Positions 3,633-20,293 of a stretch of DNA of 21,490 nt are shown piece after piece; position 1 is the first letter of the stretch; each line of letters begins with the position of its first letter. This stretch comes from a virus. Under the pieces are notes generated by a model. The model was not told the origin of the DNA. It made no database searches and was given only the letters and a program-made list of their open reading frames with translations. A program made the translations under genes and the position numbers. Location: positions 1-21,490 of IMG/VR virus record IMGVR_UViG_3300025889_014445. One strand, written 5' to 3'.

Positions 3633-4511
3633 TTACGCTCCGTCGGAGATGATCCGCACGCCCGAGGCATCGTCCGTCTCGCCCACCGCATAGGCGGCGG
3701 TGACGACGATTTCGGAACCGCGGAGGGAAGCGTCGCGCTCCAGCTCAGGCCGGATCGCCCACTTCTCCACGAACCCGATTGCCCGGTTCGGGGCGTACAT
3801 GCCGTTCTCCTTGTCGGAGTTCCCATCTTCACCGACGAGCGGCGTGATGAGGGTGTTGACACCGTAGAGCTGGCCGACCATGCCACCAGCGCCTGCACCC
3901 GGCAGGTCGTTGGATTCGGCGCGGACGCCCTGCCCCGTGTTCGCCAACGCGGGGAACGTGGTGCCGATGTCCCCGATGAGCTCCTTGTAGTAGGTGTCCG
4001 TGTGGAGCACCGCAACATAGGGGCCGGGAACCTTCGCGCCCCGAAGGTACGCGATCGCGTTGAGGAAGAACGCCTCGGTCATGTCCGTGTTCGTCGTACC
4101 AACAGAGTTGGAGAACCCGGCCATGAGAGCGACGAGGTCGGTGGTGCGCTTCTCAGCGACTGCCTTCCCCGCTTCCTCGCCGTAGTGGGAGGCACCGACG
4201 ATGCCACCCATTGCCATCAGGTCGGTGAGGGTGAGCTTCAGCCCGACCTCTCCGACGGTCAGCGTCACGGCAGTCGGTGCGAATGCCGTGTTGGCGGTCA
4301 GATCGGTGCCTTCGGTGAGGGCCGCCGCCGTGAGGGCGGGGGTCTTCGGGAACCGTTCTGCATTGGACGCCCAGTTCGCAATCGACTTGACGATTGCGTA
4401 CTGGCGCATGTCGAGCGAGTCGTACAGCGCAGAAATAATGGAGTCTGCGAGCAGACGGTACTCGTATGAGTATTCGCCCTGGAGGTTGTTCCAGGTGATC
4501 TCATTCGCCAT
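3633..4511 (-). CDS. Major capsid protein (HK97-like fold)
   Basis: This is a 292-residue protein. The start at ATG 4511 lies behind a strong AAAGGAAGG site about six bases upstream (4526-4518). The order of segments fits an HK97-fold coat protein: an N-terminal arm, a beta-hairpin-like stretch at about residues 66-100 (TEGTDLTANTAFAPTAVTLT, then VGEVGLKLTLTDLM) matching an E-loop, a long helix at about 111-133 (EEAGKAVAEKRTTDLVALM) matching the spine helix, and a beta-rich C-terminal half ending in a set of strands (GSEIVVTAAYAVGETDDASG). There is no long N-terminal delta-like extension, consistent with the separate scaffold-like gene just before it. Length is typical for compact coat proteins. 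The assignment rests on fold-like pattern, position after the scaffold and the strong translation signal. A hairpin follows the TAA stop. Confidence 0.85.
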   Translation of the reverse strand: MANEITWNNLQGEYSYEYRLLADSIISALYDSLDMRQYAIVKSIANWASNAERFPKTPALTAAALTEGTDLTANTAFAPTAVTLTVGEVGLKLTLTDLMAMGGIVGASHYGEEAGKAVAEKRTTDLVALMAGFSNSVGTTNTDMTEAFFLNAIAYLRGAKVPGPYVAVLHTDTYYKELIGDIGTTFPALANTGQGVRAESNDLPGAGAGGMVGQLYGVNTLITPLVGEDGNSDKENGMYAPNRAIGFVEKWAIRPELERDASLRGSEIVVTAAYAVGETDDASGVRIISDGA

Positions 4512-4534: not shown

Positions 4535-5071
4535 CTACCCCGGTGTGACCGGGGCAGCGGTGCGCCACTCAATCAGCCCTTCCCTGTCCAGCCGTTCGAT
4601 CGCTGCCTTGTCGTTGGCGGCGATCAGCGCCCGAATCTCAGGATCGGTCGTGCGGTACTTCTTCTGCCCCGGCGGCTGACCCTCACCTGACGGTGATGGG
4701 CGTGCAAAGCCTGGCGGCTGGACCGCGTCGGGCATCGGTGTGGTGTCGGCGGGCGGGGTGGAAGGCGAAGGTATGTCGCCGCTCGGGTAGAGCCGAGCGA
4801 ACTTCTGGTCGAGGAACGACCCGATGTCTTCGATTTCCCCAGCGTTCTGGCGAATGGTGGGAAGCGCAATCTCAGCAGCCCAATCAGGGTCTTCGACATG
4901 CTTCGCTTGGAAGTGGCGACGCGCCTTGTCGGCAAGACCGAAGTCAAGCACCGTCGCTTCTAGTTCACTCACCCTTGCCTTCAACTGGTTCCGTTCGTCC
5001 GTCATCCGCTGATGTGCTTCACGACTGACCATGTCTGGAAGGTTGCTGTCGGTGGTGTTGTCAGGCGGCAC
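4535..5071 (-). CDS. Putative scaffolding protein
   Basis: This is a 178-residue protein with a GTG start at 5071. The start is well supported: AAGGAGG lies five bases upstream. Residues 15-48 form a charged coiled-coil-like helix (RMTDERNQLKARVSELEATV). A helical segment with KARRHFQAKHVEDPDWAAEI follows, then a Pro/Ser/Thr-rich linker at about 97-135. A short C-terminal helical unit (TDPEIRALIAANDKAAIERL) resembles the capsid-binding end of phage scaffolds. The architecture of coil, flexible linker and small helical end, together with its place immediately before the coat gene, is typical of scaffolding proteins, which guide procapsid assembly and then leave the head. No protease motif is visible here or in the neighbouring genes, so scaffold removal would be by exit rather than by an identifiable protease. 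The identity is inferred from architecture and context. Confidence 0.75.
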   Translation of the reverse strand: MPPDNTTDSNLPDMVSREAHQRMTDERNQLKARVSELEATVLDFGLADKARRHFQAKHVEDPDWAAEIALPTIRQNAGEIEDIGSFLDQKFARLYPSGDIPSPSTPPADTTPMPDAVQPPGFARPSPSGEGQPPGQKKYRTTDPEIRALIAANDKAAIERLDREGLIEWRTAAPVTPG

Positions 5072-5211
5072 TTGATCCTCCTTGTGCCATATGGCGACAC
5101 CGTCGTGAGAGGTACACGACGGCGCATCTGTCCGTCTGCCCGTTCACCCTTTGCTGCCGTCCCGGTGGGCGAGTCCCGACGGCGGGTGTCCTTTGCATCA
5201 TAGGCACAGGG
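5072..5211 (-). promoter_or_regulatory. 140-base structured leader before the scaffold and capsid genes
   Basis: This is the longest noncoding gap in the window. On the minus strand it carries two hairpins. One is at 5125-5094: GCG-CCGTCGTG, a seven-base loop, CACGACGG, a three-base bulge, then CGC. The other is at 5183-5156: GCCGTC pairing with GACGGC around a GC-rich loop. A 10-base palindrome GCCATATGGC (5086-5095) lies between the first hairpin and the ribosome binding site. TATGAT near 5203-5198 resembles a -10 box, but no acceptable -35 box stands in front of it. Neither hairpin is followed by a T run. The region separates the large-protein block from the capsid genes and may set capsid-gene expression; promoter activity is unproven. 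Confidence 0.4.
5077..5083 (-). promoter_or_regulatory. Consensus ribosome binding site deciding the GTG start of the scaffold gene
   Basis: The minus strand reads AAGGAGG, then ATCAA, then GTG at 5071. This near-perfect match to the anti-Shine-Dalgarno sequence at five-base spacing fixes the GTG rather than the later in-frame ATG codons as the start. Confidence 0.8.
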
Positions 5212-7248
5212 TCATGAGAAGTCCGCGAACCCTTGCATGATGGGCCGCCCACGTTTGTCGAGGAACGACTGGATCGTCGTGTACCCCTGCGCCGCAGCGG
5301 AGCGTTCCCTAGCGAACTGTTCCAGAATGGCATTCACCTCAGACACCGGCCTGCCGTTCGTCAGCGTCTCCCCGAACATGGCGGCGATAACGTCTTCACG
5401 GGTTAGACCCATCTTGTCAAGGTTGAGCTCGCGAGAGTTGCGTGCCAGATAGGAGGCGGCAAGCTGCGCCTGGCGTGAGAACGCTTCCGGCGACTGGATG
5501 GTGTCGGAGGTGCCGGTACCGAGCTCCGTCGCCAACTCAAAGCTGATTTCCACTCCTTCGGTTAGCAGCGCCTGGAACCGCAACGCATCGTTGATCGCCT
5601 CAAAATAATCGGACGGCGTGTAGCCGGGGTCAAGCGTTGACACGTTCTGCTCTAGCAGGAAAGACACGAAGTCGTCGGCAGAGAGCGGGTCGAGCCCCTG
5701 ATAGACGAGGATGTCGTTGATGTTCTGCAACGCCTGCGGGTTGGCCCGCACCTGCTTCTCCAACTGCAACAGTTGATCGACCTCGGTCGGGCTCCACCCT
5801 GAACCGATGAGGCTCGACACATACTCCTGCGAAGTGTCGGTTCCCGGCCCGCGAGCCGACAGCAGCGACGACCGTATCTCGCCCTCCCGGTACACATATT
5901 CGTTGACGGCATCGACCCATGAGGTGGACCCCGTCTGCTCTTTGACGACTTCGATCCCTTTGAACCGTGTCTTGAACGCGTCGGTGCTCGACAACGCACC
6001 GTAGATGCGTTCCGCTGACCAGCCCTCGTTGACCCCGTTGACGAAGATGACCATTGCCTCGTCGGAGGCCATGAGCCACGCCGGGGGCGATTCCAACCCG
6101 AGGGCTGCCATCTCACGATCAAACTCTGACTGGAGCGAACCCGTTGCGCCGATAATCTCATCGACGGTCCCCGCCATCTGGACATCGAGGCTGTCGAACT
6201 CTGACTTGGAGACGGTGGACACGTTGGGGAAGTAGCCGATCCCACCGAAGATGGCGTTGAGTGCGGCACGGTCGCCTATCTCGTAGCCGATCTGGACGCC
6301 GTACACATCCCCGACGAGGTAGAACACTTCAGTGGAGTCGGTCCCCGGCACATTCCCGCCGCTGTCTGAGGTGACACGGATGAGCCGCATCCCCCGTGGG
6401 ATCGACACGTTGTTGATCTTGTCGGTGCCGGGTTCGCCGCCACCGGGGATGGGGGGGATGTCGCCGCCGTCGCCGGTGGACGGCGGCCCGCCGCCTGTCT
6501 GTGCGGGGATGCCCGTTTCCTCATCCATGTAATACTTTTCGGCGGCGATACCGAAGTTGGTGGCGTCCTCACCGAACCCTTGCGGGTCGGTGTCGTACCA
6601 GTAGGACCGTGCCGTCGGGGTGTCTGCGGAGGTGATGATCCCGTTCGCATAGGCGTAGTCGATGAGTGCCTTGCGCTCTACGGACCCTGCCGCTGTCGCC
6701 AGTAGCCCTTGAGTGAACAGGTTGGCGTACTCGCCTTGGTTGACGGACGCCGCCGACAGGTAGTAGTTGATGTCGGAGGTCTGGTCCCCGAGCACATCGC
6801 GGATCAGCCAGGTGAAGAAGGTGCGGTTGTCAGCGTTGGTACCAGGCACCGACGGTGCAGCCGGTGCCGGTGCCGGTGCCGGTGCCGGTGCCGTGCCTGG
6901 TGTCGTGCTCGGCGTGGCGGCGGGCTGTGTCGCGGCAAGGTTCGTGTAGTACGTTTCGGCGGCGTTGGCGAAGTTCTGCACATCGCCGCCGAGGTCGGCA
7001 GCGGAGGTGTTGATCCAGTAGGACCGTGCCGCGGCGGTGTCTGCGGAGGTGATGATCTTGTTCGTGTACGCGTAGTCGATCAGCTTCTTCCGTTCGGCAG
7101 AGCCGGGGGCGGTGCGCTGTATCGCCAGCGTGAACAGGTTGGCGTATTCGCCGCTGTTCCCTCCGGCGCCGTTGACGTAGTAGTCGATGTCGGAGGTGGT
7201 GTCCTTCAGGACCGTCCGAATCAGCCACTCGAAGAAGTTGCGGTCCAT
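5212..7248 (-). CDS. 678-residue putative internal/ejection protein with a duplicated N-terminal domain
   Basis: I do not recognise a named family. ATG at 7248 overlaps the previous stop as TGATG, with AGGGAAG upstream. Residues 4-102 and 143-241 are two copies of one unit, aligned without gaps at an offset of 139. Shared positions include FF-x-WLIR, TSDI-x-YY, GEYANLFT, LIDYAY, IITSADT and ARSYW. The copies are joined by an Ala/Pro linker (103-139) and followed by a Gly/Pro linker (about 246-275). The middle and C-terminal parts are acidic and mostly helical, with STDAFKTRFKG (421-431) and EYVYREGEIR (450-459), a pattern also seen in the neighbouring 392-residue protein. No membrane segment, signal peptide or enzyme motif is seen. 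Context between portal and scaffold, next to a giant protein, suggests a virion-internal or ejected protein. The role is inferred; the duplication is certain. Confidence 0.65.
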   Translation of the reverse strand: MDRNFFEWLIRTVLKDTTSDIDYYVNGAGGNSGEYANLFTLAIQRTAPGSAERKKLIDYAYTNKIITSADTAAARSYWINTSAADLGGDVQNFANAAETYYTNLAATQPAATPSTTPGTAPAPAPAPAPAAPSVPGTNADNRTFFTWLIRDVLGDQTSDINYYLSAASVNQGEYANLFTQGLLATAAGSVERKALIDYAYANGIITSADTPTARSYWYDTDPQGFGEDATNFGIAAEKYYMDEETGIPAQTGGGPPSTGDGGDIPPIPGGGEPGTDKINNVSIPRGMRLIRVTSDSGGNVPGTDSTEVFYLVGDVYGVQIGYEIGDRAALNAIFGGIGYFPNVSTVSKSEFDSLDVQMAGTVDEIIGATGSLQSEFDREMAALGLESPPAWLMASDEAMVIFVNGVNEGWSAERIYGALSSTDAFKTRFKGIEVVKEQTGSTSWVDAVNEYVYREGEIRSSLLSARGPGTDTSQEYVSSLIGSGWSPTEVDQLLQLEKQVRANPQALQNINDILVYQGLDPLSADDFVSFLLEQNVSTLDPGYTPSDYFEAINDALRFQALLTEGVEISFELATELGTGTSDTIQSPEAFSRQAQLAASYLARNSRELNLDKMGLTREDVIAAMFGETLTNGRPVSEVNAILEQFARERSAAAQGYTTIQSFLDKRGRPIMQGFADFS
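6526..7239 (-). repeat. Tandem duplication of an approximately 99-residue domain (period 417 bases)
   Basis: Copy A is encoded by 7239-6943 and copy B by 6822-6526. The protein copies align without gaps at an offset of 139 residues. Stretches such as the codons for IITSADT and ARSYW are also close at DNA level, so the duplication has diverged but is clear. It looks like internal gene duplication within one reading frame. Confidence 0.85.
6861..6890 (-). repeat. Five perfect CCGGTG hexamers encoding an Ala-Pro linker
   Basis: The plus strand reads CCGGTG five times without interruption. On the coding strand these give alternating Ala-Pro between the two duplicated domains. The repeat unit is a multiple of three, so gain or loss of units would change linker length without a frameshift. 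Confidence 0.85.
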
Positions 7249-8426
7249 CAGGTCTTCCCTATCCCCGTGTCGGCCATCTTCTGTGCGAACTTCTGTGAGA
7301 AGGTGCCTTGGTTGCCTGCGTACACCTCGCGGATGCTGCCGACCCGTTCAGCGAATCCCTTGGTGCTTTGCCCTGCACCCATGCCTGCTTCCAGTTCACG
7401 TTGCGTCACCCTGCCAGAGAGGCCGTAGCCGGAGGTGACGTTGCGGAACCCGGCGAGGTATTCACCCTCGGTCTGGAACTCTGGCTTCTTCTGGTACAGC
7501 GTCTGGTACCGCTTGGTGCTCCGCAGCTTCTCGGTGAGGAACGAGTCGAAGTCGAGCCGTCCGGCCTGCGCCATCCAGAACGCGTTGGCCTCGTTCGTAT
7601 ATTCGGTGACCCACTGGTTGACGAGGGCGTCGTCGGCTTCTTCCAGCAGCCAGCTCCGGTACTTCTCTGTGACGGCTTGGGACAGTTCTCGCCGGTCCCA
7701 CACCTGCGTGGTCCGGCCTGTGCCGCTGCCGCTGCTGCCCCTGCCGCTACCTGAGGTGGGGGCGAGGACTCCGCGAAGCTGGTTGAACTCGTCTTGCGTA
7801 TACACGGGTGCGCCGCGTGGGCTATAGGGGATGTTCCCCACCGCAGGGACGATCCCCTTCGTCGGGTCGTTCAGGTAGTAGACCGCCCGCCCGTCTTCCC
7901 CGATGATGCCGAACACGTTGGGAAGCGCAGACATGCCAGACGCAAACGTCGTGATGGAGTTGACAGCGACATCCCAAGAGAACAGCTCTGGCCCAGTCGG
8001 GAACCGCTGCCCCCCACCGTAAGTTTGTTTCCACAGTTCAGCGAGGCCGTTGATCCGTACCCGCAGGTCCGACTTGTTCACATCGTATGCCTCAGCGAAC
8101 CGAGACGCGACCCAGTTGTAGTCCTCCACCCGAGTGGTGTTGTAGACAGGGATGGACCCCCCGCCAATGGCTTCTTCCACCGCCTTGGTGACCGTGTCGG
8201 TCAGGTCAAGGGTCAACCCGTAGCCATCCGCAGTACCGCCACCCGTGCCAATCGGATTCCCAGATCGGCGCGCTTGGTCCTTCTCAAACTGGGTGATACG
8301 CGGCGGCCTGGTCGATGTCGGCGGTGACGGCTCAGGCTCAGGCTGCTGCGTTTTCGGTGTGCCGCCTGGGCCGCGCGTGCCAATGGTGGCGCCGTACCAG
8401 ACAGGAAGTTCGTCAGGATTCGCCAT
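7248..8426 (-). CDS. 392-residue hypothetical protein of the putative ejection block
   Basis: I do not recognise a named family. ATG at 8426 lies behind GAGGAACT and overlaps the end of the giant upstream gene by 14 bases. The N-terminal 45 residues are proline-rich and disordered-looking. The middle (about 70-215) mixes helices and short strands (LFSWDVAVNSITT, DGRAVYYLNDP). A Gly/Ser linker lies at 223-238. The C-terminal part (about 240-340) is helical, with NEANAFWMAQAGRLDFDSFL (278-297), STKRYQTLYQKKPEF (303-317) and EYLAGFRNVTSGYGL (322-336). The STKRYQTLYQ...EYLAGFR pattern resembles STDAFKTRFK...EYVYREGEIR in the next protein. There is no signal peptide, membrane span or catalytic motif. 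Likely a virion-internal or ejection protein by context only. The stop joins the next start as TGATG. Confidence 0.6.
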   Translation of the reverse strand: MANPDELPVWYGATIGTRGPGGTPKTQQPEPEPSPPTSTRPPRITQFEKDQARRSGNPIGTGGGTADGYGLTLDLTDTVTKAVEEAIGGGSIPVYNTTRVEDYNWVASRFAEAYDVNKSDLRVRINGLAELWKQTYGGGQRFPTGPELFSWDVAVNSITTFASGMSALPNVFGIIGEDGRAVYYLNDPTKGIVPAVGNIPYSPRGAPVYTQDEFNQLRGVLAPTSGSGRGSSGSGTGRTTQVWDRRELSQAVTEKYRSWLLEEADDALVNQWVTEYTNEANAFWMAQAGRLDFDSFLTEKLRSTKRYQTLYQKKPEFQTEGEYLAGFRNVTSGYGLSGRVTQRELEAGMGAGQSTKGFAERVGSIREVYAGNQGTFSQKFAQKMADTGIGKT

Positions 8427-11400
8427 AGTTCCTCAGCCGTTCCTTCTGATCTGCGAGAATAGCCGCATAGTCAGGCACGGTACCGCCAACCTTCACGCCC
8501 CGTTCGTTGGTGCGGCTGAACTGGGTGATGTCCCACAGTGGCACCCCGTCGATGTAGGCGATGACGAGCGGTCTGTCCCTGTGGACGATAACACCGTCCT
8601 CCTTGGTGAACGCGGCTGTCCCTGTCCCGAACGTGTCGGGCTGCCAGATCGCGAATGCCACATTGTCAGCGTTGCGGATCAGGGCAGCGAGCCCGTCCCG
8701 TGAAGCGGCATACCCTTCCTCTCCCCGCTCGGGTGCGTTGATGCCGAGCAGCCGCACATAGGCGACACCGTCGGGGGTAGGCATTTCGATGGTGTCTCCG
8801 TCCACGACCTGCAACAGCTTGGGGTCGGCAATCTCGGTGTACGCCTTCGTGTCGTTGAGCGGCGGCGGCTGCGGCGGCTCCCAGTTGAGCGGCCCCAACA
8901 TGCGCCCATACACAGAGTTCTCGTAGTCCTTCTCGTTGAACGGGTTGAGGTCGCCGTTCACCCCCAGCTTCCCCAGTGTGACCGCGGTGCGGAACCTGGA
9001 CCGCAACTCGTCGGGGCTGTACCGGGTCGTCACCTTCGTCTTCTCACCCGTGACCGGGTCGCGTGGCCCGTCTTCGACAACGTCGATGTACGGCACATCC
9101 CACTCATCGAGCGATGACCACCCTGCTGCCTTCTGGCCGACCTCCACCGCCTTGTCGAAGTCCTCCCGCAACTGCGACCCGTAGTACGACAGCGGTTGAG
9201 AGGCGTCGAAGTCGGCCATGTCGAACCCTTCCACGGAGCGGAGCCGGTGGTACAGGGCAGTCGGGGGACGGTCATCTATCCCGAGCTTGTTCATCTTCGC
9301 TTCCAGCTCGTTCGACAGGTCGAACTCGTAGGAGAACGCACCCTTCGACTCTTGAATCGCTGCCTTCAGCCGGTAGACGGGGAACTTGACAGCCATGCCG
9401 GACTCCAACGCAACGACGGCTTCCTCGGGGAACGCATTGTCGCCTTCGGTGAAGGCGCCGATCTGCTTCAGCCAGTCGCCGTTCGCTGCCCACCACTCCG
9501 GTGTCAGGGTGACAGTGGGCGGCGGGACACCTTCGTCGGGCCGTCCCGCCAACCCGACCTTCTCCCCGTTCACCATCACAGACTGGGCTGACAAGTCCAG
9601 CCCCGTACCCTGCCGGTAGATCACATCAAGGTATTCCCTCGCTGCCCGATGCACCGACATGTGGGCGTCGTATCGCCAGTCGTTGTCGTCGCGGTACCGC
9701 AGCCACCCTTCCTCCCGGCCACGGATACGGAGCTCCCTTGCCCGTGCCACATCGGCGGTCTTGATGCGGTCCCCTTCGATAGCGTCGCGTGCGTCCTCCG
9801 GTACAGCGGAGATGCTGGGGACGTAATAGTGGGAGACGAGGTTGATCGCGAAGCCGGGGTTGCGGGCGATGAACTCTGCCCGTTCGTCCGGTGTGGCGTA
9901 CTCCAGCACGGCAGCCATGACGTTGTCCCCGAGCAGGCGCCGGTCGTCAATCGTCGCTTCACCCGATTCAAGCAGCGATAGGCCAAGGTTGATGGAGTCG
10001 CGGAGGGCGTCCGGCAACGAACCGGAATCGACCCATCCGTCCACGAAGTTCCCGATAGGCCGCATGGAGTCGATGTATTTCCAGTCGGACCCTGCATACT
10101 GCGGCGACCCGGCGATCTTCAGCATGAAGTCCTTGGTTGATTCCTGAAGGGCAGCGACCGTGGCCTGCTGGTTCAGCACTTCCCACTGGCGCATCGCTTC
10201 CGACCCGCCCGACTTGTCCGGTGTCGTCGCCAGCCCGTTCTCGTTGAGCCAGTCGGCGTGGCCGATTGACACATAGTCGGTGCGCCACGGCGACATGGAG
10301 GCATCCAACATGCGGTCGTTCATCCACTTGTTGAGCGACCGCTGCTGGGCAGGGTCCAACTCCAGCTTCGGGTCGAACCCGAGCGCCGCATACCCGTACC
10401 CCATAAGGGCAAGGTTGTAGAAGGCGGCGACGGTGTTGCGGATCGTGAGCCCACCCGACGGGAATAGGGCATCGTCCAGCGCAGCGACCCACTCAAACAC
10501 ATCCTCATATGGCTGCTGGTAGATGGCAAGGTTCGGCTGGAGTTCTTCCAGCACGCTGCGGGCAACGTCGTACCCCGGCACATCTTGGATCAGAGGTGAC
10601 GCCAAGAGCCACGCCGGGATATTCCCCATCTGTGGCCCGAGGTCGATCAGGAGCTGATCGTCCAACGATGTCGGCAAGAATGAGAAGTTGTTGACAACCC
10701 CTGCCGGGGTCAGCGCCCCAGGCCGCTCATCCGACTCAGGGTCGGTCAGCATTGCGAGGTGCGCCATCCGGTCAACGAGACGCAGGTTGACCCGCCCGAC
10801 CTGCTGGCCGGTGACAAGCTGGGTCGGCTGGAGCAGCTTCGTTGTCCACCATTGCAGATAGTCGGTTTGCGCCCTGCCGAACGGATAGATGCGGGCCATC
10901 TTCTTCCCGAGTGCAGACGACGCACCGAACGAATACATCATGTCGTCGGCGGCGAAGTTGGCGTATCGCATCGCTGCGTTGTGGAGGTCTTCCTCCAGCA
11001 CCATCCCCTGCTGGGAGATGGCGTGCCGGATCGTTTCCGACCTGCGGCCCTGGTTCATCAGGTACTGGGCGTGGTACATGTCGGTGGCGAGGCCGTTGTC
11101 GAGCAGCCACTGTTCCGAGATGATGCGCCCCTTGTACGCCTCGTCGTAGGTGCCACGCACCCAGTCGTAGTAGTGGTCGTAGAACACTGAGCCGCGGCGT
11201 CCCTGCGGCTTCCCGTACAGCATCTCAAACCCGCCACGAACCGTCCTGTCGATAAAGCCGGTGGTCTTCTCTGCCCCCTGTGCGGGGACATGGGGGAGGC
11301 GACGCCACATCTGTGCGCCCCAGTCGATGGTGGTGTTGTTCGCCGCGGCACGCAGAATCTCTTGCCTGAGCTGGGCCTTCGTCAACGCCGGGGTTTCCTT

Positions 11401-14400
11401 CATCCCCTGCATCCAGACTTCCAGGCCGTTGGTGATCGTGTCGTAGGCGTTGCCTGCGGTGATGGGGGTGTGGTTGTAGGTGGTGTTCTTCGCCAGCTTC
11501 ACACCCTCATCGTTCCACCATGTTTCCCACAGGGCTCGCCGTTCCGCGTCGTCGGCGCCGTTCATCACAGCACGGGCATACGCCTTGAACACCGGCTGCT
11601 GCACGAGCGAACCGTTGACCCACCGTTCAGCGTGGACCCACATGCCCCGTTCGCTCGGCAACACCATCGACCACGGCATGGAGCGAGGCGCCATCACCGA
11701 CCCCATCGCTTCACGGGAGAACGCCCGTGCCTCAGACCCGACACCTGCACCGGGAATCTCACGCCCCGCCACTTTGCCGGGGGTCGTGGACTTCAGCAGG
11801 TCCGTTGACATCCCGGCGTCCTCGTAGAAACGGATGACCTCATCCAAGCTGGACCGGAGCGCGGTGAGCGGGTTGAACAGCACCGATGCAGCGAACGCCA
11901 TCTGGATAAAGTCCATCGTCTGTTTGACGCCTTGCCCCGCGGGGGACTTGATGGCCGCCCATGTTGCCCGTGTCGCAGGGTTCCGTTGGAACGAGTGCCA
12001 GATCAGCAGCTCATAGGGTGACACCGGCAGCGCCGTGGTCCCTGCCTGCGGGTTCATCCCGATAGCTGCCATCGCCGGTTCCAAGTCACCGAACGGCATC
12101 AGCGCAGCGGCTTCTTCCTTCCCCTGCATTGCCCCACGCTGCCCCACCACCATCGACCAGTCACGTTGCGGGAGGCCAGGCACGAACGGGTGCGCCAACG
12201 GGTTCCCTTGACTGTCCACCGCGACCGGCACACCCCAGTCGTCAGCCCACTCGTCCATGTAACGGTGGATGAGGTCTTCCAGTGTGGAGCGTTCACGCCC
12301 CGGCCCCTGCAAGTGTTCGATCTGTGCTTGGACACGGGACAGTTCGTCCCGCTTCCCCGCCACGACCTTCAGCCGCTGATCGTACGCGGGGCCGACACCG
12401 TCGAGGATCGCCTGTGCGTTGTCTCGGGCTTCGATGGCGGCAGCGCGGGCCTGCTCCAGTTGAGCCCGCGTGTTGATCTGCTGCGTCCCCTGCCCACGCG
12501 TCGTGGACTGCATCGTGGCGTCACCAGGCGGCAGCTTTGCCAGCCGCTCGTCCAGCGCCTTGACCGAATCGTCGAACTCTTTCACCATCTGCCGCACCCG
12601 AGGTATCTGTGTCACCTCGTCAGGCATCAGCGACAGCGACAGGTCGTCAAGCTCTTGGCGCAGCACCGACGCTCGGCCCTGGAGCAGCGCCGTCGCCTGG
12701 TCCCCTGCCCTGTACGCCTCGTAGGTATCGACAGCGCGGATGATGTCGTCGGCGTAACCATCGACGTCGTTGAGGCGTCGAATCTCAATCATGTGGAACA
12801 TGTCGTCAAGGAAGCTGCGGTCAGACAGCGACGCGTAGCGGCGGGCCGACGCCCGCAGCAGCACATCCTGTATGAAGGTGCGGGCCTTGGTGTTCTCCCC
12901 TGCCAGGCGAGACATGCTGGCAAGGCCCATCGTGGTCTTGCGGCGCAGCGCCCGAGCGGGGGCAGCAGGTATCCACAGCCCGCCGTTGACCGGCAGCTCG
13001 TAGCGAAGGACGTCGATGACTTCCTCCATCGCTGCGACCCGAGCCGACTTCGTGGTGAACGTCTCCCGTGCGATATCGGTAAGGCGTTTGATGGCAGGCG
13101 ACGACAGGCCGCCTTGGGCGAGGAGCGGCACTGTCCGCACCGAGTTCCGCTCAACGATGTGTTTCGCCGCCGACATGATGGGCCGCGACGACAGAAGCCG
13201 CTCTGCCCCTGCCGTCGTTGTCACGCCCCGGCGCAACGTGTTCCACGATGCGTTGCCGCCCAATGTGGCATAGGTGAGCGGGTCGTAGGCGAGCGACGCG
13301 CCGACGTTCACCCATGCGGCAAGGTTCGACTCAGGGTCGAGGTCGTAGTATTCGGCTAGCGTCCCGATGTCCAGCACACTCTCCTTGTACGCGTCGATGG
13401 CTTTGGGGAGTCCTTCCTGCTGGATGTCGGCAACCATCGACTGGAGGAACGCCGTGTTGAGGTTGATGTTCGGGTCAACTATCTGGCGAATCTGGTCCCA
13501 CACATACGGGTCGGACAGCGCCCCGACACCGTTCTCGTTGACAGCGTCGGCCAGCCGTTTCCAAGCACCCATGTCGGTGACATCCTGCGCCACGATCCCT
13601 ATGAAGTGGATGGCACGGTCATAGGCCGACAGCACCTCCAGCGTGGGCGGTGCGATGTCTTCTTCTAGGAACCGGCCCAACCGGGACTGGGTCCGTGCTC
13701 GTTCCTCGGCGGCTGCCTGCAAGTCCTGCACGGTTTCCACCGCAGCAGCCTGCTTGACCTCGTCGGGGATTTGCCCCCATGCACCGATGCCTGCCTGGAC
13801 GATCTGGAGTCCAGTGGCGTCGGGGTTGTCCGCAGCGTATTGCCGCATGAGGTACACCAGCGACTGGTCCGACTGGGACTGGAGCACAGCGGGGAGGTTC
13901 TGCATTTCCCGCATAGCGTTCTGGTCTGCGGTGCGCTGCTCTGCGCTGGGGTTCGGCAACTGGGCTGACCCCTGCGTTGCCGCATATTGGGCCTGCATGT
14001 CCGCGATGGTCTGTTCGGTGTTGTGCGCCCCGAACTGTTCCACCCTTCGGATGATGTTGTCGGTGGCTTCGATGAACGCACCCGCCAAGTTCTGACGCCC
14101 AGGCACCTCGCCGGAACTGGGCAGGATGGTGTGCCGCAGCCCCTTGTCTGCAAGCAGGTATTCGATGATGACATCGGTGGGTGTGTCGAAGTGGGTGCCG
14201 GGGTCCAGCTTGATGAGCACATCGGTGTACGAGTCGGACCCTTCGTCTTGGAACCGCAGCGCCAGTTCGGTGTCGGTCACCTCATAGCCGATGCGTTTCC
14301 CCCGTAGCCCGTTCAGCTCTGAGGTGGACGCCAGGTTGAACCGGGTGATGTCCTCGTTGCTGCCTGCGGCGAGGACGGCCCGTTCGATCTCTTTCCTGCG

Positions 14401-15027
14401 GTCACGGTTCTCGAGGAACGCCGCCTCAAACCAGTTCTGGTTCTGTTTCGCTTCTGCGAACACCATCGCCGCGGTGCGTACTGCGCCACCAGATTCCATC
14501 CATGTGTCGATCGCGGCGTCGGCAAACACTTCGTCCTCGGGGACGCCCCCCATCGCATGGATGACGGCGCGTTCCTCCAGCATCTGCCCGGTGGTCATAC
14601 CGACATGCCTGATGAACTTGCTGGTGCTCATGCTGGTCACCGACTGCGGGTCGGAGTTCTGCATCACCATGTTCATCACTTCGTTCTTGACATCATTCGG
14701 GATGTCAACGAACGCTTGGAGAAGCTGGAACTCCAGAGTGGTGGCGTCAGCGTCGGACCATCCCACGGGACGCTGGGACAGTTCCTGAAGGAACCCTGCA
14801 CCGAACTGCTGGCGAGCTGCTGCCGCTCTTGCAGACGCCTGCTGATGGTCGAACGCTGAGGGGGTCAGCGGCGGCGGCGCCGGTGGCTGTGACGGGACGC
14901 CTGTCTTCGCCAGTTCAGGGTCGGCGGGTGGCGGCGTGGGAGGCTGAGACGGGACGCCTGTCTTCGCCAGTTCAGGGTCAGCGGGTGGTCGCCGTGCCAG
15001 TTCGTCGGCAATCGGGTCGATTGCCAT
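8413..15027 (-). CDS. Giant 2204-residue putative virion/ejection protein with C-terminal staphylococcal-nuclease-like domain
   Basis: ATG at 15027 overlaps the preceding TAA as TAATG, with AAGGAACAGGG upstream. Residues 15-52 are two copies of a 19-residue Pro-rich repeat. Most of the protein looks helical. Charged coiled-coil stretches lie at about 770-920 (SVLRQELDDLSLSL, KRDELSRVQAQIEHLQ). Hydrophobic segments occur near 1036-1052 (MDFIQMAFAASVLFNPL) and 1532-1549 (FYNLALMGYGYAALGF). A conspicuous ALGKKMARIYPFGRAQTDYL lies near 1370. After a proline linker, residues 2070-2185 carry the signatures of a staphylococcal-nuclease domain: VVDGDTI, YVRLLGINAPE and a later RPLVIAYIDG. These correspond to the metal and phosphate site (D2078, R2092, E2100, perhaps R2152). 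Size, context and lack of other enzyme motifs suggest a protein packaged in the head and ejected with DNA. The nuclease domain is well supported; the virion role is inferred. No RNA polymerase, peptidase or lysozyme motif was found. Confidence 0.75.
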   Translation of the reverse strand: MAIDPIADELARRPPADPELAKTGVPSQPPTPPPADPELAKTGVPSQPPAPPPLTPSAFDHQQASARAAAARQQFGAGFLQELSQRPVGWSDADATTLEFQLLQAFVDIPNDVKNEVMNMVMQNSDPQSVTSMSTSKFIRHVGMTTGQMLEERAVIHAMGGVPEDEVFADAAIDTWMESGGAVRTAAMVFAEAKQNQNWFEAAFLENRDRRKEIERAVLAAGSNEDITRFNLASTSELNGLRGKRIGYEVTDTELALRFQDEGSDSYTDVLIKLDPGTHFDTPTDVIIEYLLADKGLRHTILPSSGEVPGRQNLAGAFIEATDNIIRRVEQFGAHNTEQTIADMQAQYAATQGSAQLPNPSAEQRTADQNAMREMQNLPAVLQSQSDQSLVYLMRQYAADNPDATGLQIVQAGIGAWGQIPDEVKQAAAVETVQDLQAAAEERARTQSRLGRFLEEDIAPPTLEVLSAYDRAIHFIGIVAQDVTDMGAWKRLADAVNENGVGALSDPYVWDQIRQIVDPNINLNTAFLQSMVADIQQEGLPKAIDAYKESVLDIGTLAEYYDLDPESNLAAWVNVGASLAYDPLTYATLGGNASWNTLRRGVTTTAGAERLLSSRPIMSAAKHIVERNSVRTVPLLAQGGLSSPAIKRLTDIARETFTTKSARVAAMEEVIDVLRYELPVNGGLWIPAAPARALRRKTTMGLASMSRLAGENTKARTFIQDVLLRASARRYASLSDRSFLDDMFHMIEIRRLNDVDGYADDIIRAVDTYEAYRAGDQATALLQGRASVLRQELDDLSLSLMPDEVTQIPRVRQMVKEFDDSVKALDERLAKLPPGDATMQSTTRGQGTQQINTRAQLEQARAAAIEARDNAQAILDGVGPAYDQRLKVVAGKRDELSRVQAQIEHLQGPGRERSTLEDLIHRYMDEWADDWGVPVAVDSQGNPLAHPFVPGLPQRDWSMVVGQRGAMQGKEEAAALMPFGDLEPAMAAIGMNPQAGTTALPVSPYELLIWHSFQRNPATRATWAAIKSPAGQGVKQTMDFIQMAFAASVLFNPLTALRSSLDEVIRFYEDAGMSTDLLKSTTPGKVAGREIPGAGVGSEARAFSREAMGSVMAPRSMPWSMVLPSERGMWVHAERWVNGSLVQQPVFKAYARAVMNGADDAERRALWETWWNDEGVKLAKNTTYNHTPITAGNAYDTITNGLEVWMQGMKETPALTKAQLRQEILRAAANNTTIDWGAQMWRRLPHVPAQGAEKTTGFIDRTVRGGFEMLYGKPQGRRGSVFYDHYYDWVRGTYDEAYKGRIISEQWLLDNGLATDMYHAQYLMNQGRRSETIRHAISQQGMVLEEDLHNAAMRYANFAADDMMYSFGASSALGKKMARIYPFGRAQTDYLQWWTTKLLQPTQLVTGQQVGRVNLRLVDRMAHLAMLTDPESDERPGALTPAGVVNNFSFLPTSLDDQLLIDLGPQMGNIPAWLLASPLIQDVPGYDVARSVLEELQPNLAIYQQPYEDVFEWVAALDDALFPSGGLTIRNTVAAFYNLALMGYGYAALGFDPKLELDPAQQRSLNKWMNDRMLDASMSPWRTDYVSIGHADWLNENGLATTPDKSGGSEAMRQWEVLNQQATVAALQESTKDFMLKIAGSPQYAGSDWKYIDSMRPIGNFVDGWVDSGSLPDALRDSINLGLSLLESGEATIDDRRLLGDNVMAAVLEYATPDERAEFIARNPGFAINLVSHYYVPSISAVPEDARDAIEGDRIKTADVARARELRIRGREEGWLRYRDDNDWRYDAHMSVHRAAREYLDVIYRQGTGLDLSAQSVMVNGEKVGLAGRPDEGVPPPTVTLTPEWWAANGDWLKQIGAFTEGDNAFPEEAVVALESGMAVKFPVYRLKAAIQESKGAFSYEFDLSNELEAKMNKLGIDDRPPTALYHRLRSVEGFDMADFDASQPLSYYGSQLREDFDKAVEVGQKAAGWSSLDEWDVPYIDVVEDGPRDPVTGEKTKVTTRYSPDELRSRFRTAVTLGKLGVNGDLNPFNEKDYENSVYGRMLGPLNWEPPQPPPLNDTKAYTEIADPKLLQVVDGDTIEMPTPDGVAYVRLLGINAPERGEEGYAASRDGLAALIRNADNVAFAIWQPDTFGTGTAAFTKEDGVIVHRDRPLVIAYIDGVPLWDITQFSRTNERGVKVGGTVPDYAAILADQKERLRNYGES
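8455..8820 (-). other. Staphylococcal-nuclease-like domain at the end of the giant protein
   Basis: The coding strand gives VVDGDTIEMPTPDG, then YVRLLGINAPERG, then a helix (YAASRDGLAALI) and a strand VIAYIDGVPL. This order matches the OB-fold nuclease family, which cuts DNA or RNA using calcium. The aspartate that usually follows GI or VD (Asp40 in the staphylococcal enzyme) is Asn here (codon at 8739-8737), while the Arg and Glu positions are kept. Confidence 0.7.
14872..14985 (-). repeat. Two tandem 57-base repeats at the start of the giant gene
   Basis: The 57-base unit occurs twice with only a few mismatches and encodes PADPELAKTGVPSQPP plus three residues, twice. The near-identity at DNA level suggests a recent duplication. 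It forms a flexible proline-rich N-terminal segment. Confidence 0.85.
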
Positions 15028-15402: not shown

Positions 15403-16110
15403 TCAGTTACGGGGAAGCCATGCCTCGTAGTAGTCGATGTCGAGTTCCAGAGTGGCGGCGCCACCCGAGTCCTGCCAGTGGACGATGGAGCACTCCATCG
15501 TCTCAGCGGCGCCGAGCAGGCAGTCGATCTGGCCTGCGTGCTCGTCGTCCACATACAGATCGACCAGCGCAGGGCCGCCGTTGGCGTTGACCCCCGAGAA
15601 CCGGAGCTCCAGATCGTGCCATGTGTCGAGCACCATCGTGGTGCCGCTGGTGAGGGTGGAGATTCTCGCCACCGCCTTGGTTCTGTCACCGTTGGTGGAT
15701 GCGGTGTCGAACGAGAGGACTCCGGCGTCCGAGTCGATCCACACACCGACGGTCGGTTCCGTGGCGGTCACCGAGTTGGAGAACCCGATGCGGAAGTTGT
15801 TGCCTGCGAGCTGGTTCCCAGCGACCGACGGGTACCGGACGCGGGTGCGGACGATCTGGTCCGACCCGGCAAGGACGAGGTGGTCGGGGTGGAGCGTGAA
15901 CGCTTCACCGTCACCGTTCGCGGTGCCTGCGGTGGTGACACGGAGGACACCGTTCTGCGCGGCGACATACGACGGGGTCGATGCGTTGCCGATGGTGGTC
16001 ATCTCCCAGCGGAGCTCACCGACGGAGGCGTCGGCTACCGCCGAGTTCGACATGAAGTCGTCCTTGATGTGGGTGCCGTCGAGGACGGAGGTAGGGATGA
16101 AGTCGGGCAT
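15403..16110 (-). CDS. Concanavalin/LamG-like jelly-roll structural protein
   Basis: This is a 235-residue protein. I place the start at ATG 16110, which overlaps the upstream stop as TGATG and follows AAGAAGGAAACTG. The open frame runs further to 16296, but that part overlaps the 85-residue gene and reads as low-complexity Arg-rich sequence. The protein is almost all beta strand, with features of lectin- or glucanase-like jelly rolls: an early DDF, NGVLRVTTAG, a run of strands, a late TWHDLELRFSGVNANGG and LVDLYVDDEHAG, and an acidic beta end (LELDIDYYEAWLP). Phage proteins of this type decorate heads or act as carbohydrate-binding fibre parts. No catalytic residues of a glycoside hydrolase stand out. 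Its position right after the portal group suggests a head decoration or fibre protein; the fold is better supported than the role. Confidence 0.65.
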   Translation of the reverse strand: MPDFIPTSVLDGTHIKDDFMSNSAVADASVGELRWEMTTIGNASTPSYVAAQNGVLRVTTAGTANGDGEAFTLHPDHLVLAGSDQIVRTRVRYPSVAGNQLAGNNFRIGFSNSVTATEPTVGVWIDSDAGVLSFDTASTNGDRTKAVARISTLTSGTTMVLDTWHDLELRFSGVNANGGPALVDLYVDDEHAGQIDCLLGAAETMECSIVHWQDSGGAATLELDIDYYEAWLPRN

Positions 16111-16367
16111 CAGTTTCCTTCTTTCTTGGGTGCTGGGGTCTTGGGGGCGGGCGGTTCCTCCACGATGATGCCCGCGGTGGCGAGCAGCCCGTCGGTGAGC
16201 CACGCGTCGGCGTGGGCCTTCAGCACGGTCGCCTTGCCGTCCACGAACCGGATCGGGTAGGCGAACCCGTGGGGTGAGATGACCGTGTCGTTCCATCCGA
16301 ACCGTTTCAGGGTCACAACTGGACCCTTCTTCAGTTCCTTGTCTGTTGGTGCGTGGACTGTGTCCAT
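16110..16367 (-). CDS. 85-residue hypothetical protein downstream of the portal gene
   Basis: I do not recognise the family. ATG at 16367 follows the portal stop by ten bases, with AGGGAGACAGG between. The protein has a basic start (DKELKKGPVVTLKRFGW), a central beta-rich part containing FAYPIRFVDGKATVLKAHAD, a short helix (WLTDGLLATAG) and a Pro/Lys-rich tail (PPAPKTPAPKKEG). The compact shape suggests a small virion or head-completion protein made with the portal. No membrane or enzyme motif is visible. Its stop overlaps the following start (TGATG). Confidence 0.6.
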   Translation of the reverse strand: MDTVHAPTDKELKKGPVVTLKRFGWNDTVISPHGFAYPIRFVDGKATVLKAHADAWLTDGLLATAGIIVEEPPAPKTPAPKKEGN

Positions 16368-16377
16368 CCTGTCTCCC

Positions 16378-18261
16378 TTACGCTGCCGTGTTGCCTGGTG
16401 CCGTTTCGCTCACCATACGGCGCTGCCGAGAGGGGAGCATCTTCTGGAGTTCGTTCCCGATGGTGGGCGGCATCGGCTGCCCTTCCGCGTTGCCGGGGAT
16501 GCCGCCGGATGCGAGGGACCGCATCATCTGGATGGTGTCCGGCTGGCCTCCTGGCGCCTGACCCGGCACCGGCCCAGCGAGAGCTTCCATCTCCTTGATG
16601 GTGGACAGCACCGCCGACCGTACCGTTTCACGGTCGTCGTCAATCTTCTCCACGAACCCTTTGAGCGCCCCGAGGTCGCCCTGCTCGATCCGCTGCGGCA
16701 GCAGCACCTTGTAGAACAGGTCGGTCAGGTTCTCAATGGCGATGTCCCGCTCCTCCTGCAACGCGTCGGGGGTGACCCCTGCCTTCTCCATGAAGGTGCG
16801 GAGCGAGATGGCGCCGAGGTTCTTCGCCATTGCGAGCTTCGTCATCCGGTTCTGCTCGTCAAGGCCGGTGGAGTCGCCGTAGGACACCTTGTTGCGGTAG
16901 TCGCCACCGAACAGCTTGACCGGGTCGTACTTCTCCACATACGACCGGACGCCTTCCATACCGTGAATGCGCTTCTCACCGGGACACCACTGTTCATCGA
17001 ACGCAGCGAGCAGCTTGTTGGCGGTCATCAGACCCGACTCCATGTCCTGCTGCGCCCACGCCAGTTCAGCGTTGAACGTGCCTGCGAGAGCGACGACACC
17101 CTTGGCTGACACGATGGATGCGTCGGCGTCGCCGGATCGCTGCACCGGCCACGACGCCTGCCGGTGCGCCGACGAGATGAGGCTGGTCACAGTCTGCTGT
17201 GCCTCAAAGTTGACGGGTGGCCGGTCACGCAGGATCGCCGCCCTGCCGTCGCCTGTGCCGCGGAGCACAGCGGCAGGACCGTATTCCTCCGCGTTCTCAA
17301 TGTTGTCGAGCACGACGGGTGCGTAGATGTTCTGCTGCATGTCGTCCAGCAACCTGGCTGCGAAGTTCTGTGCAGTCTTCAGGTTGGGGATGACATCCTC
17401 CAACGCTCCCCGATACGACCCGTCATGGGTGATGCGCTTCATCTCCACGACAGGACACAGACCGAGCCGGTGCTCGACAGGTTCCGTGGCCCACACCATG
17501 TTCGACCCGCCCACCTGGTCAATCAGTCCACGGGGCAGCAGCGACCTGCCCTGATGCTCCCGAGGCAGCAGCGAGTCAGCGAAGGCGACACCCCACATCG
17601 TGGAGTCGAAGTACCAGCACTCCTCCAAGAACTCTGCATCGTCCAGCCCTTTGGCCGAGCGGTATCCCGAGAACTCGCGGAACGCAGGATGGTCGTCGCC
17701 GTACTCCGCTTTCAGTTCCTTGACTCTCCGCTGCCGGAGGAACAGCACCTGCACCATCCTGCCACGGGAGTCATGTGCGAGCGGATACGCCTGCCGCGGG
17801 TCCATGTGCATCAGGTACGGGGCCCGTTCCGCGGAGGGGCGCACCGACCCGTCGCCGTTGTACCACTCAGCCCACGGCGCCAGATAGGCGGCGCCTGTGT
17901 GGAACCAGTCACGGTACCCCATCTTCAGGAGGCGGGGCATCTCCGAACGGTCCCAATACGACTGGTAGACCCGCTTCCGTTTCTGCGCCAGCCGTTCACC
18001 GCGGTCCTCGGCGGTGCCTGGCGGCGGCGGCACATAGATGGCGGGGACACCGGCACCAGCGGTCGCGATCTTGTCTTCCAGGGCGCCCTTGTAGACGTTC
18101 TCCACCAGCGGCTCAGACGGTTCGTCTTCACCGTCGTCCCATATGATGTTCCACTGGTCGGCGGCGATGGCGTCGTTGACGCGTATCTGCGCCTTCCACT
18201 GTTGATGTTGGTTGATGCCCGTGTCGCGGGCATGACGCAGATCGTCAACCGTCAGAGCCAT
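16378..18261 (-). CDS. Portal protein
   Basis: This is a 627-residue protein. ATG at 18261 lies behind GAGGAACCT and overlaps the end of the terminase gene by 17 bases. Portals form the twelve-subunit ring at one head vertex through which DNA enters and leaves and to which the terminase docks. Evidence is the position directly after the large terminase, the length, and portal-like segments: an early region with VENVYKGALEDKIATAGAG (53-71), a helix-strand part with YRDWFHTGAAYLAPW (116-130), MHMDPRQAYPL (151-161), and a long helical second half (AQNFAARLLDDMQQN; MESGLMTANKLLAAFDEQW; NRMTKLAMAKNLGAISLRTF). The C-terminal 70 residues are Pro/Gly/Met-rich and flexible. No protease domain is fused. 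I am fairly sure of the call from context, less so of the subfamily. Confidence 0.82.
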   Translation of the reverse strand: MALTVDDLRHARDTGINQHQQWKAQIRVNDAIAADQWNIIWDDGEDEPSEPLVENVYKGALEDKIATAGAGVPAIYVPPPPGTAEDRGERLAQKRKRVYQSYWDRSEMPRLLKMGYRDWFHTGAAYLAPWAEWYNGDGSVRPSAERAPYLMHMDPRQAYPLAHDSRGRMVQVLFLRQRRVKELKAEYGDDHPAFREFSGYRSAKGLDDAEFLEECWYFDSTMWGVAFADSLLPREHQGRSLLPRGLIDQVGGSNMVWATEPVEHRLGLCPVVEMKRITHDGSYRGALEDVIPNLKTAQNFAARLLDDMQQNIYAPVVLDNIENAEEYGPAAVLRGTGDGRAAILRDRPPVNFEAQQTVTSLISSAHRQASWPVQRSGDADASIVSAKGVVALAGTFNAELAWAQQDMESGLMTANKLLAAFDEQWCPGEKRIHGMEGVRSYVEKYDPVKLFGGDYRNKVSYGDSTGLDEQNRMTKLAMAKNLGAISLRTFMEKAGVTPDALQEERDIAIENLTDLFYKVLLPQRIEQGDLGALKGFVEKIDDDRETVRSAVLSTIKEMEALAGPVPGQAPGGQPDTIQMMRSLASGGIPGNAEGQPMPPTIGNELQKMLPSRQRRMVSETAPGNTAA

Positions 18262-20293
18262 AGGTTCCTCCGAGCACCATGCTAACCAGCTCCTTCATGG
18301 ACGGCGCAGCATGTTGTTCCCGTTCGTTGATGTAGCGGCGTTCCTTGTTGCGTGCCGCCATCCGGTCCCACTTGCGTTGCACCGCGGCGGGGACCGGCAT
18401 GGCCTGCATCGGGTTGATGGAGGTGCGGCGCTGGAGCAGTTCCAACGCTTTGACGAACCCGACCCACGCTGCCATTGCGAGGTCGTCGGGGTGGCCCTTC
18501 AACGCTGCCCGTGACAGGTCGAGGGCTTCCTTGCGGTCCCATGTCTTGAAGTGGTCTTTGACGAGGATCATCCGTTGACGGTCAGCGGCGGTCATCATCG
18601 GCCAGCGGATGACACGGGCCTTCATGTAGAACGACATCGACGGGACACCGATGGTGGGGTTGGATCGGTTCGCAGAGTGGGTCTGGTGACGGTGCAGGTT
18701 CACCCCGTAGTCATCGAACACCCGCTGGATTTCGGGGTCTTCCACCACGGCGGCTTCACGGTTCACCTCGTAGCAGTACCAGACGGGCCGGTACTTCACG
18801 ATGGGGTCCACCACCAGCTTGGACTTCAGGCCCGAGATGCCGAGCTTCGACCCGAAGAAGTAGTCGATGAGGGTGATCGTGTTCCGCTCCCTATCGACCC
18901 CCCACACCACCCAGGCGGCACCTGCCGACCGTGCAGGGTCGGCACCGACGACCAGCAGCTCCGACGGTTTGTAGGTCTGGAAGGTGCGTGCCTCGTCGTC
19001 GGCGGCGTTCAGGGTGTGGTCGGTGAAGTCGCCGGTGATGATCGACGGCGGGTTCTGCTGATACATCGTCTCAAACAGTTCCTCGTCCCGTTCCCGAATC
19101 TCCCGCAGGCCACGGATGCGCTTCACCCTTCCCCCGTATGCGTTGACGATGTCGTCGGACACCTCCGCAGCGGCGACACGTTCACCGTTCGGCATCTCAA
19201 AGTGGGAGTCGAGCGGGAACCTGTCGGGCCAGTACGACACCTCGTTGCCGTTCTCGTCGTGTTCGATGGCGGGCATGACGACGACGGCGACACCGTTCGC
19301 ATACTTCGTGTAGTGGCGCCCTTGGTGGACGACGTTGGCGTCACCGACGAGGGAGTTGATGATCCGCTCATAGTTGTCGCCGGGGAGGCATCGGGTGCCG
19401 AGGATGAGCAACCGGCCTGCCTCGTCAAGTCGGGACAGGGCGGTACCCATCACCCACGCATACTGCGATTCCCGTGCCGTCGAGGTCATCTGGTTCTCAC
19501 GGTCGAACACATCGGACATGACGAGCGTGTCGATACGGGAACCGTAGAGCTGGCCCTCCATGCCGGTGGCCCACAGGTTCGGGTCGGCCTCGGGTGCGCC
19601 CGACTTCAGGAAGTAGATTTCGTTCTTCGTCCAAGTGGTCGGGTCGAGCTTGTTGCCTTCGTGATCGACCATCCCCTTCTTGTACTTGAACGGCCCGTAG
19701 TCTTCGATCAGGTTCCGTTCCGGTTTCACGGAGGTGGCACCTGGCGGCGAGTTGGAGTAGGTGCGGGGGTCGGTGAGGTACGGGTCGATGCGTTCAGCGA
19801 TGCGGCGCCTCGCGAACGATTCGCCACGCATGATCCACGCTGCACGGTGCTCCCGGTCGTCGCATGTCTCGTACAGCAGAAAGTCGCCTGCGGTGGTGTC
19901 CTTCCCAGCGCCGGGAGGCAGGAGGGCGATGACGACGAGGTTGGTGCGGTCCTCGTAGGCTGCGACCAGTTCTTCTTGGTGCGGCTCGACGCTGCGCCCG
20001 ATGTAGCGGGGCCGCCATTCGGTGAAGGTACCTTTGGGTGGGATGGGGCGGGTGTCGTCGTAGACGAGCCCGTACTGGTCTTTCCCGGCGATGCGTGCGC
20101 TGCGGAGACGACCTTGCCGCACCTTCGCCATCTCGTCATAGGCGAGACGGAAGGTGCCGTCCCTCATCCAAGTCCGTACTGTTGCGGAGCTGATGTCGGT
20201 GGCTCGACACGCTTCTTCGATGGACTTCGCAGTCGAGTATGCGGCGAGGAACCGCTGCTGCTTCTCCTGCTTGCGTCGGGTAGCAGCGTGCAT
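18245..20293 (-). CDS. Terminase large subunit with N-terminal helix-turn-helix
   Basis: This 682-residue protein is the ATP-driven DNA packaging motor with a nuclease for genome cutting. ATG at 20293 follows GAAAGGCACCC. Residues 12-58 form a helix-turn-helix (EEACRATDISSATVRTWM) of the kind found in small terminase subunits. The ATPase part has a Walker A-like LPPGAGKDTT (125-134), a Walker B-like TLVMSD (256-261) and a coupling motif LILGTR (296-301). The RNase H-like nuclease part has VVGADPA (D452), WYCYEVNREA (E509) and HPDDLAMAAW (D603/D604). The usual Ser/Thr after the Walker A lysine is Asp132. The C-terminal 60 residues are basic and helical and could contact the portal. The identification is strong. 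Fusion of a small-subunit-like DNA-binding segment to the large subunit is the unusual part. Confidence 0.92.
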   Translation of the reverse strand: MHAATRRKQEKQQRFLAAYSTAKSIEEACRATDISSATVRTWMRDGTFRLAYDEMAKVRQGRLRSARIAGKDQYGLVYDDTRPIPPKGTFTEWRPRYIGRSVEPHQEELVAAYEDRTNLVVIALLPPGAGKDTTAGDFLLYETCDDREHRAAWIMRGESFARRRIAERIDPYLTDPRTYSNSPPGATSVKPERNLIEDYGPFKYKKGMVDHEGNKLDPTTWTKNEIYFLKSGAPEADPNLWATGMEGQLYGSRIDTLVMSDVFDRENQMTSTARESQYAWVMGTALSRLDEAGRLLILGTRCLPGDNYERIINSLVGDANVVHQGRHYTKYANGVAVVVMPAIEHDENGNEVSYWPDRFPLDSHFEMPNGERVAAAEVSDDIVNAYGGRVKRIRGLREIRERDEELFETMYQQNPPSIITGDFTDHTLNAADDEARTFQTYKPSELLVVGADPARSAGAAWVVWGVDRERNTITLIDYFFGSKLGISGLKSKLVVDPIVKYRPVWYCYEVNREAAVVEDPEIQRVFDDYGVNLHRHQTHSANRSNPTIGVPSMSFYMKARVIRWPMMTAADRQRMILVKDHFKTWDRKEALDLSRAALKGHPDDLAMAAWVGFVKALELLQRRTSINPMQAMPVPAAVQRKWDRMAARNKERRYINEREQHAAPSMKELVSMVLGGTYGSDG

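Follow-up and report, generated by a model that had tools for sequence, protein, structure and literature searches.

A staphylococcal nuclease-like domain fused to a giant protein encoded among the head genes of a podovirus-like phage

The viral record IMGVR_UViG_3300025889_014445 of IMG/VR, a linear sequence of 21,490 bases that we analyzed over its whole length (the window), encodes a protein of 2,204 residues, here called the giant, whose C-terminal domain almost certainly has the fold of staphylococcal nuclease (SNase). Comparison with the sequence of a close relative indicates that the fusion of giant and SNase domain is conserved and is not an artefact. The gene lies within a podovirus-like block of virion genes, and we tentatively propose that the giant is an ejection-type protein of the virion, by which a nuclease is delivered. 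The phage is known from metagenome sequence only, and the window itself is probably a fragment of a larger genome. The parts of the giant gene are as follows.

8413..15027, minus strand: giant protein gene (2,204 residues; ATG at 15027, stop at 8413-8415; no cysteine)
8467..8826, minus strand: SNase-like domain (residues ~2068-2187, about the last ~125 residues of the giant)
8575..8625, minus strand: 17-residue insert TGTAAFTKEDGVIVHRD (residues 2135-2151, between the positions equivalent to G86 and R87)
8848..8883, minus strand: proline-rich linker between the giant body and the SNase domain (residues 2049-2060)
10753..11202, minus strand: stretch of highest conservation in the giant body (residues 1276-1425; 57-71% identity; matches no known family)
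12298..12699, minus strand: coiled-coil-like region with the peak of heptad periodicity (residues ~777-910)

The giant gene and its close relative

An earlier note on this DNA had described the giant as one uninterrupted frame, and this is what we observed: 2,204 codons are open, with no stops, from 15027 to 8413 on the minus strand. A search with the terminase revealed a close relative, IMGVR_UViG_3300005253_001075 (33,483 bases), with the gene order of the window and a giant of 2,158 residues (L013:6595-13071) that is 42% identical end to end over 2,215 aligned columns. Change between the two genes was 0.43, 0.34 and 0.61 at codon positions 1, 2 and 3, respectively. Because third positions changed more than first and second positions, and because the homologue matches from end to end, the giant is, on this comparison, a genuine protein-coding gene under constraint. 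Both contigs read straight from the body into the nuclease domain, so the fusion cannot be attributed to a sequencing artefact.

Identification of the SNase domain

The motif VVDGDTI...RLLGINAPE, which the earlier note had taken as a nuclease signature, is located at residues 2074-2100, and PHROG 452, tblastn and Foldseek all assign it to the SNase family. The individual lines of evidence are modest, but they are consistent with one another. The PHROG 452 profile (endonuclease) matched the full giant at E = 5e-4 and the domain of the homologue at E = 1.9e-6. Searches with the domain gave E = 2e-5 against Staphylococcus phage nucleases (tblastn) and E = 0.03 against staphylococcal nuclease structures (phmmer). 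When an AlphaFold model of the domain was compared with the PDB by Foldseek, the 50 best matches listed were all SNases (E = 3.4e-5, probability 1.00); the template modeling (TM) score was limited to 0.47 by the modest quality of the model, whose predicted local distance difference test (pLDDT) value is 57.6. Against a profile built from free-standing phage SNases, the native domains scored 35.5 bits (window) and 29.9 bits (homologue), a result that is partly circular in that several member sequences had been found as matches to the window domain.

Profile searches of the C terminus did not all agree with the family assignment. PHROG 452 matched, whereas Pfam PF00565 left the domain unmatched at every setting, even after removal of the insert, and NCBIfam matches fell far below their cut-offs. 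Judged by its sequence, the domain is divergent from the family. It is nonetheless 57% identical to its homologue versus 42% for the whole giant, which indicates that the SNase domain is under constraint. The proline linker reported before the signature was also found (WEPPQPPP, residues ~2049-2056), and its prolines are partly conserved in the homologue.

Active-site residues and the insert

Four residues, in nuclease numbering, are kept in the window giant: D19 (D2076), the metal ligand D21 (D2078) and the catalytic residues R35 (R2092) and E43 (E2100). Of the other metal ligands, D40 is replaced by N2097 and T41 by A2098 in the window giant; the homologue has T at position 41. The column directly after D-x-[FY]-G is R87 in ordinary SNases; that column holds T in the window and F in the homologue. 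When all 17-residue deletions were scanned, the best gain in SNase-profile score came from removing residues 2135-2151, independently in both proteins, and this deletion puts R2152 in the R87 position. Alignment with cyanophage SNases by MAFFT opened the same gap and left R2152 invariant (cyanophage YGRLLGWLYI versus RLLVWLYI). On the basis of this invariance and of the matching strand that follows, we preferred an insert to loss of the catalytic arginine, which was rejected as an explanation for the T or F after D-x-F-G. The insert is itself conserved, with 9 of its 17 residues identical in the homologue.

The substitutions at positions 40 and 41, the insert beside R87 and the failure of PF00565 to recognize the domain could potentially be explained by a SNase fold that has no catalytic use and instead binds or anchors DNA, either holding the end of the genome or coating it as it enters. 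We regard this explanation as distinctly doubtful. R35, E43, the DGDT aspartates and the well-placed R87 candidate are invariant in the window and homologue giants while the rest diverges. Moreover, the free-standing SNase of ct2KA10, a virus that also has a giant at this locus, carries N at position 40 too and yet scores well above the PF00565 cut-off.

Distribution of the fusion and comparison with known systems

The earlier note had left it to a survey of homologues whether the domain is fixed or optional. The SNase domain is present in two of two members of the window clade. It was not found at the C terminus of the same-locus giants of ct2KA10 (1,764 residues), L011 (a further record; 2,493 residues, complete to the stop codon) or Immanuel3 (1,648 residues). 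A PF00565 search of these three giants gave no match either; because PF00565 fails on the window domain as well, this result by itself argues only weakly for absence. In ct2KA10, the same search found only a free-standing SNase, ~2.8 kb from the terminase large subunit (TerL) gene. Presence in both clade members, together with absence from the C termini of the other giants, makes the fusion look like a gain in the window clade. Among the 80 terminase matches listed, one distant record (L020) was added.

The phage SNases of PHROG 452 (Staphylococcus, cyanophage and Arthrobacter phage enzymes) share with the window domain the fold, the DGDT motif, R35, E43 and, if the insert model holds, R87. 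They are, however, free-standing proteins of ~115-150 residues encoded outside the head gene block, whereas the window domain is fused to the giant and differs from them by the D40-to-N replacement and the 17-residue insert before R87. The SNase of Streptomyces phage Ankus is also free-standing, and many phage SNases are sited elsewhere, as in Staphylococcus phages and in Abba, where the gene lies in the lysis region. Free-standing SNases adjoin or lie near the terminase in three unrelated phages (L004:1-385, minus strand; L116:2977-3360; L109:650-1111), hinting that some phage SNases have a packaging-related role.

A nuclease at the end of such a protein had been called unusual, a view that our searches soften. 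PHROG 8809, a family of very large phage proteins, has a SNase segment at positions 1100-1218 of 2317, and A0A6J5NQ80, from an uncultured Caudovirales phage, is a 1,342-residue model named SNase-like; SNase segments thus occur in at least two other very large, uncharacterized phage proteins. The segment of PHROG 8809 is internal, not C-terminal as in the window giant, and the profile does not match the window giant.

Polyvalent proteins are giant co-injected phage proteins with enzymatic domains, encoded near late genes (PMC5512222). In the survey of these proteins by Iyer et al. (2017), ParB-like DNases were neither accompanied nor displaced by other DNase domains, and the main text does not mention SNase (PMC5512222). 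The window giant resembles polyvalent proteins: it is very large, is encoded among virion genes and has an enzymatic domain that would be expected to act as the phage invades. It differs in having one recognizable domain, the SNase, where two or more define a polyvalent protein; Pfam, PHROGs and NCBIfam revealed no peptidase, ADP-ribosyltransferase (ART), helicase or other polyvalent domain in it.

Gene context of the giant

All convincing genes of the window are on the minus strand. Read in that direction, they encode a beta-helix protein, TerL, the portal protein, three small proteins, the giant, p392, p678, the scaffold protein, the major capsid protein (MCP), p288, p150, a connector and the start of a tail protein.

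20317-21456, minus strand: right-handed beta-helix protein, immediately before TerL (Pfam PF13229, E = 2e-16); likely a tail spike or depolymerase
18245..20293, minus strand: TerL (PHROG 38, E = 7e-23; 23% identity to Beephvirinae TerL)
16378..18261, minus strand: portal protein (PHROG 104, E = 3.5e-6; 24% identity to Beephvirinae portals)
7248..8426, minus strand: p392, whose start overlaps the 3' end of the giant gene by 14 nucleotides
5212..7248, minus strand: p678, whose residues 406-511 match PHROG 8424 (E = 1.6e-4 / 3.4e-7)
4535..5071, minus strand: probable scaffold protein, by its position before the MCP gene (52% identical homologue in the same place)
3633..4511, minus strand: MCP (PHROG 283, E = 0.005; 83% identical homologue)

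TerL, portal and connector are 23-26% identical to those of the Beephvirinae, and the connector (conn312) aligned with Immanuel3 gp54 at an hhalign probability of 96%. Sequence similarity suggests that the phage is distantly related to this group of Streptomyces podoviruses, of which Abafar is podoviral by electron microscopy (PMC11536984). The order TerL-portal-giant-...-scaffold-MCP is the same in the Beephvirinae, and a giant gene follows the portal gene in Immanuel3, Dennebes, WRightOn, ct2KA10 and L011. The 3' end of the block also has a common element, PHROG 8424, in the Beephvirinae, ct2KA10 and, more weakly, the window (p678); this is the family of Immanuel3 gp13, which likewise directly precedes scaffold and MCP.

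The positional equivalent in Immanuel3, gp9 (PHROG 10618), is like the window giant in its location between the portal and PHROG 8424/scaffold/MCP, its size, its lack of cysteine and the overlapping start of the next gene. Unlike the window giant, gp9 (1,648 residues) is without SNase, and no sequence similarity was detected between the two; the PHROG 10618 profile matched neither the window giant nor its homologue. The Beephvirinae have a separate peptidase and glycosylase (as annotated) adjoining the giant, whereas in the window the nuclease is fused to it.

The giant has no cysteine in 2,204 residues versus 24 in the 3,748 residues of the other window genes counted (chance ~7e-7). Cysteine is absent from all five same-locus giants (2,204, 2,158, 1,764, 2,493 and 1,648 residues), while TerL and portal have 3-6. 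The podovirus-like order of TerL, portal, scaffold, MCP and connector genes around the giant, its cysteine-free and mostly helical character and its positional equivalents in the Beephvirinae make up the case for a virion or ejection protein, and we consider it very probable that the giant is a virion protein.

T7 gp16 and the N4 virion RNA polymerase are very large podovirus proteins that are ejected and carry an enzyme. Their enzymes are a transglycosylase and an RNA polymerase, whereas the window giant carries a C-terminal SNase-like domain; no transglycosylase or RNA polymerase family match was found in it (Pfam, PHROGs, NCBIfam and PDB sequences). Nor did the window giant show sequence similarity to a known ejection protein in family and PDB searches or by hhalign against the Beephvirinae giant.

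A proposed ejected nuclease and its alternatives

In the mechanism that we propose, the giant body would be this lineage's version of a large, helical, cysteine-free protein encoded between portal and scaffold, and a SNase domain would have been added to its C terminus by way of a proline linker. Inside the capsid, this domain would probably be inactive, perhaps through metal limitation and the 17-residue insert beside the catalytic arginine. The giant would then leave the capsid with the genome, and early in infection the domain would cut nucleic acid without specificity, inside or at the host cell, with host DNA or RNA or competing elements as its target. In a bolder version, which we consider unlikely, a latent SNase in a genome-delivery protein would be restrained by the insert until ejection activates it, and the first attack on nucleic acid would come from the virion itself and not from a gene expressed after entry.

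Several observations weigh against an ejected nuclease. N2097 replaces the metal ligand D40, and R2152 is equated with R87 by position, which holds only under the insert model. Lack of cysteine is not specific to ejected proteins, because MCP and scaffold have none either. By hhalign, the window giant had no detectable homology to the giants of the Beephvirinae, ct2KA10 and L011; a body homologous to Beephvirinae gp9 or to the ct2KA10 or L011 giants was therefore rejected, and the equivalence of the giants is positional only. Viral and genome scans for relatives yielded only the one close relative. A non-specific nuclease packed with phage DNA would need restraint, at which we can only guess. 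Finally, no virion mass spectrometry was found for the giant or, in the literature searched, for its relatives.

The same gap in virion proteomics, which extends to the whole clade and, in the literature searched, to the Beephvirinae, leaves room for a giant that stays outside the mature virion and works in assembly or, expressed late, in the cell that produces the phage. This is very unlikely, given how large the giant is, where its gene lies (between portal and scaffold, overlapping the next gene) and that several distinct lineages have a giant protein there.

Could the nuclease instead work on the phage's own DNA, trimming or resecting the packaged genome close to the portal as the DNA is packaged or the head is completed? 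The giant gene sits with the portal and scaffold genes, and free-standing SNase genes are found adjoining or near the terminase in Flavobacterium phage Fpv8, cyanophage ACG-2014i and ct2KA10 (~2.8 kb). There is also a precedent in T4 gp4: packaging requires this non-specific DNase, which is associated with the virion (PMC7824862). However, T4 gp4 has a different fold, related phages whose equivalent giants lack a C-terminal SNase package their DNA all the same, and the many phage SNases sited elsewhere (Staphylococcus phages, the lysis region of Abba) do not point to packaging. Processing of genome ends therefore seems improbable to us.

Action at the envelope stage or outside the cell is another explanation that we judge unlikely. 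Classical SNase is calcium-dependent and secreted, and the domain could clear DNA outside the cell, or nucleic acid bound to the wall, as the phage adsorbs and enters, a stage at which Ca2+ is abundant. In the Beephvirinae, this gene block includes enzymes that act on the wall (annotated as a peptidase and a glycosylase), which indicates that it can supply entry enzymes. However, the domain ends an internal-looking protein that shows no sign of tail-spike architecture, and a separate beta-helix protein (20317-21456) is probably the spike. Nor does calcium oblige the domain to act outside, because Mg2+-dependent SNases exist (PMC3585158).

If the giant does deliver its nuclease from the virion, a SNase-type nuclease would act at the moment of entry, and the question would arise of how a non-specific nuclease is packed without destroying phage DNA. 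A virion-delivered SNase would also add a further catalytic fold to the enzymes on giant ejected phage proteins, and the giant of this locus could then be seen as a carrier of swappable entry functions, with wall enzymes adjoining it in the Streptomyces phages and a nuclease fused to it here.

The giant body and other features of the window

The giant body matched no family, PDB or phage sequence (Pfam, PHROGs, NCBIfam, PDB sequences), and a search of a defence-system library gave no match. A resemblance of its conserved core to the minor tail protein of Curtobacterium phage Sunfish (E = 4) was rejected as chance. AlphaFold predicted the surroundings of this core (522 residues) as all-helical, but with a pLDDT of 38.8 the model is unusable. 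The earlier note had also reported a long coiled coil and two hydrophobic segments, and both hold in part. Residues ~777-910 have the strongest heptad periodicity of the giant (8.2), a value that lies inside the upper range of shuffled maxima (mean, 5.8; highest, 9.3) and is suggestive only. The hydrophobic segments exist (residues 1039-1057 and 1533-1551), but their peak Kyte-Doolittle value of 1.26 over 19 residues is below the transmembrane threshold, and membrane spans were rejected on that account.

Among the neighboring genes, p392 has a same-position homologue in the close relative (44% identical). The N terminus of p678 contains a duplicated unit of ~105 residues (NRTFFTWLIRDVLGDQTSDINYY... 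plus a near copy), a duplication that is absent from the 517-residue homologue in the close relative. Directly after the MCP gene, p288 (2703-3569, minus strand; 59% conservation) is a DNA-binding-like protein sited among head genes, with a helix-turn-helix-like start, then a long stretch that is charged and helix-like, and the motif CPRAGC at its C terminus. The p297 open reading frame (15403-16296, minus strand) overlaps p85 in a different frame; its homologues start near M62 of p297, which puts its probable true start close to 16113. In the close relative, three paralogues lie side by side (L013:4039-4776, 4649-5503 and 5519-6214) and are 47-60% identical to p297. The close relative also encodes a Gp3-like recombination-directionality-factor protein (L014:9551-10720, minus strand; Pfam PF18897, E = 2e-33).

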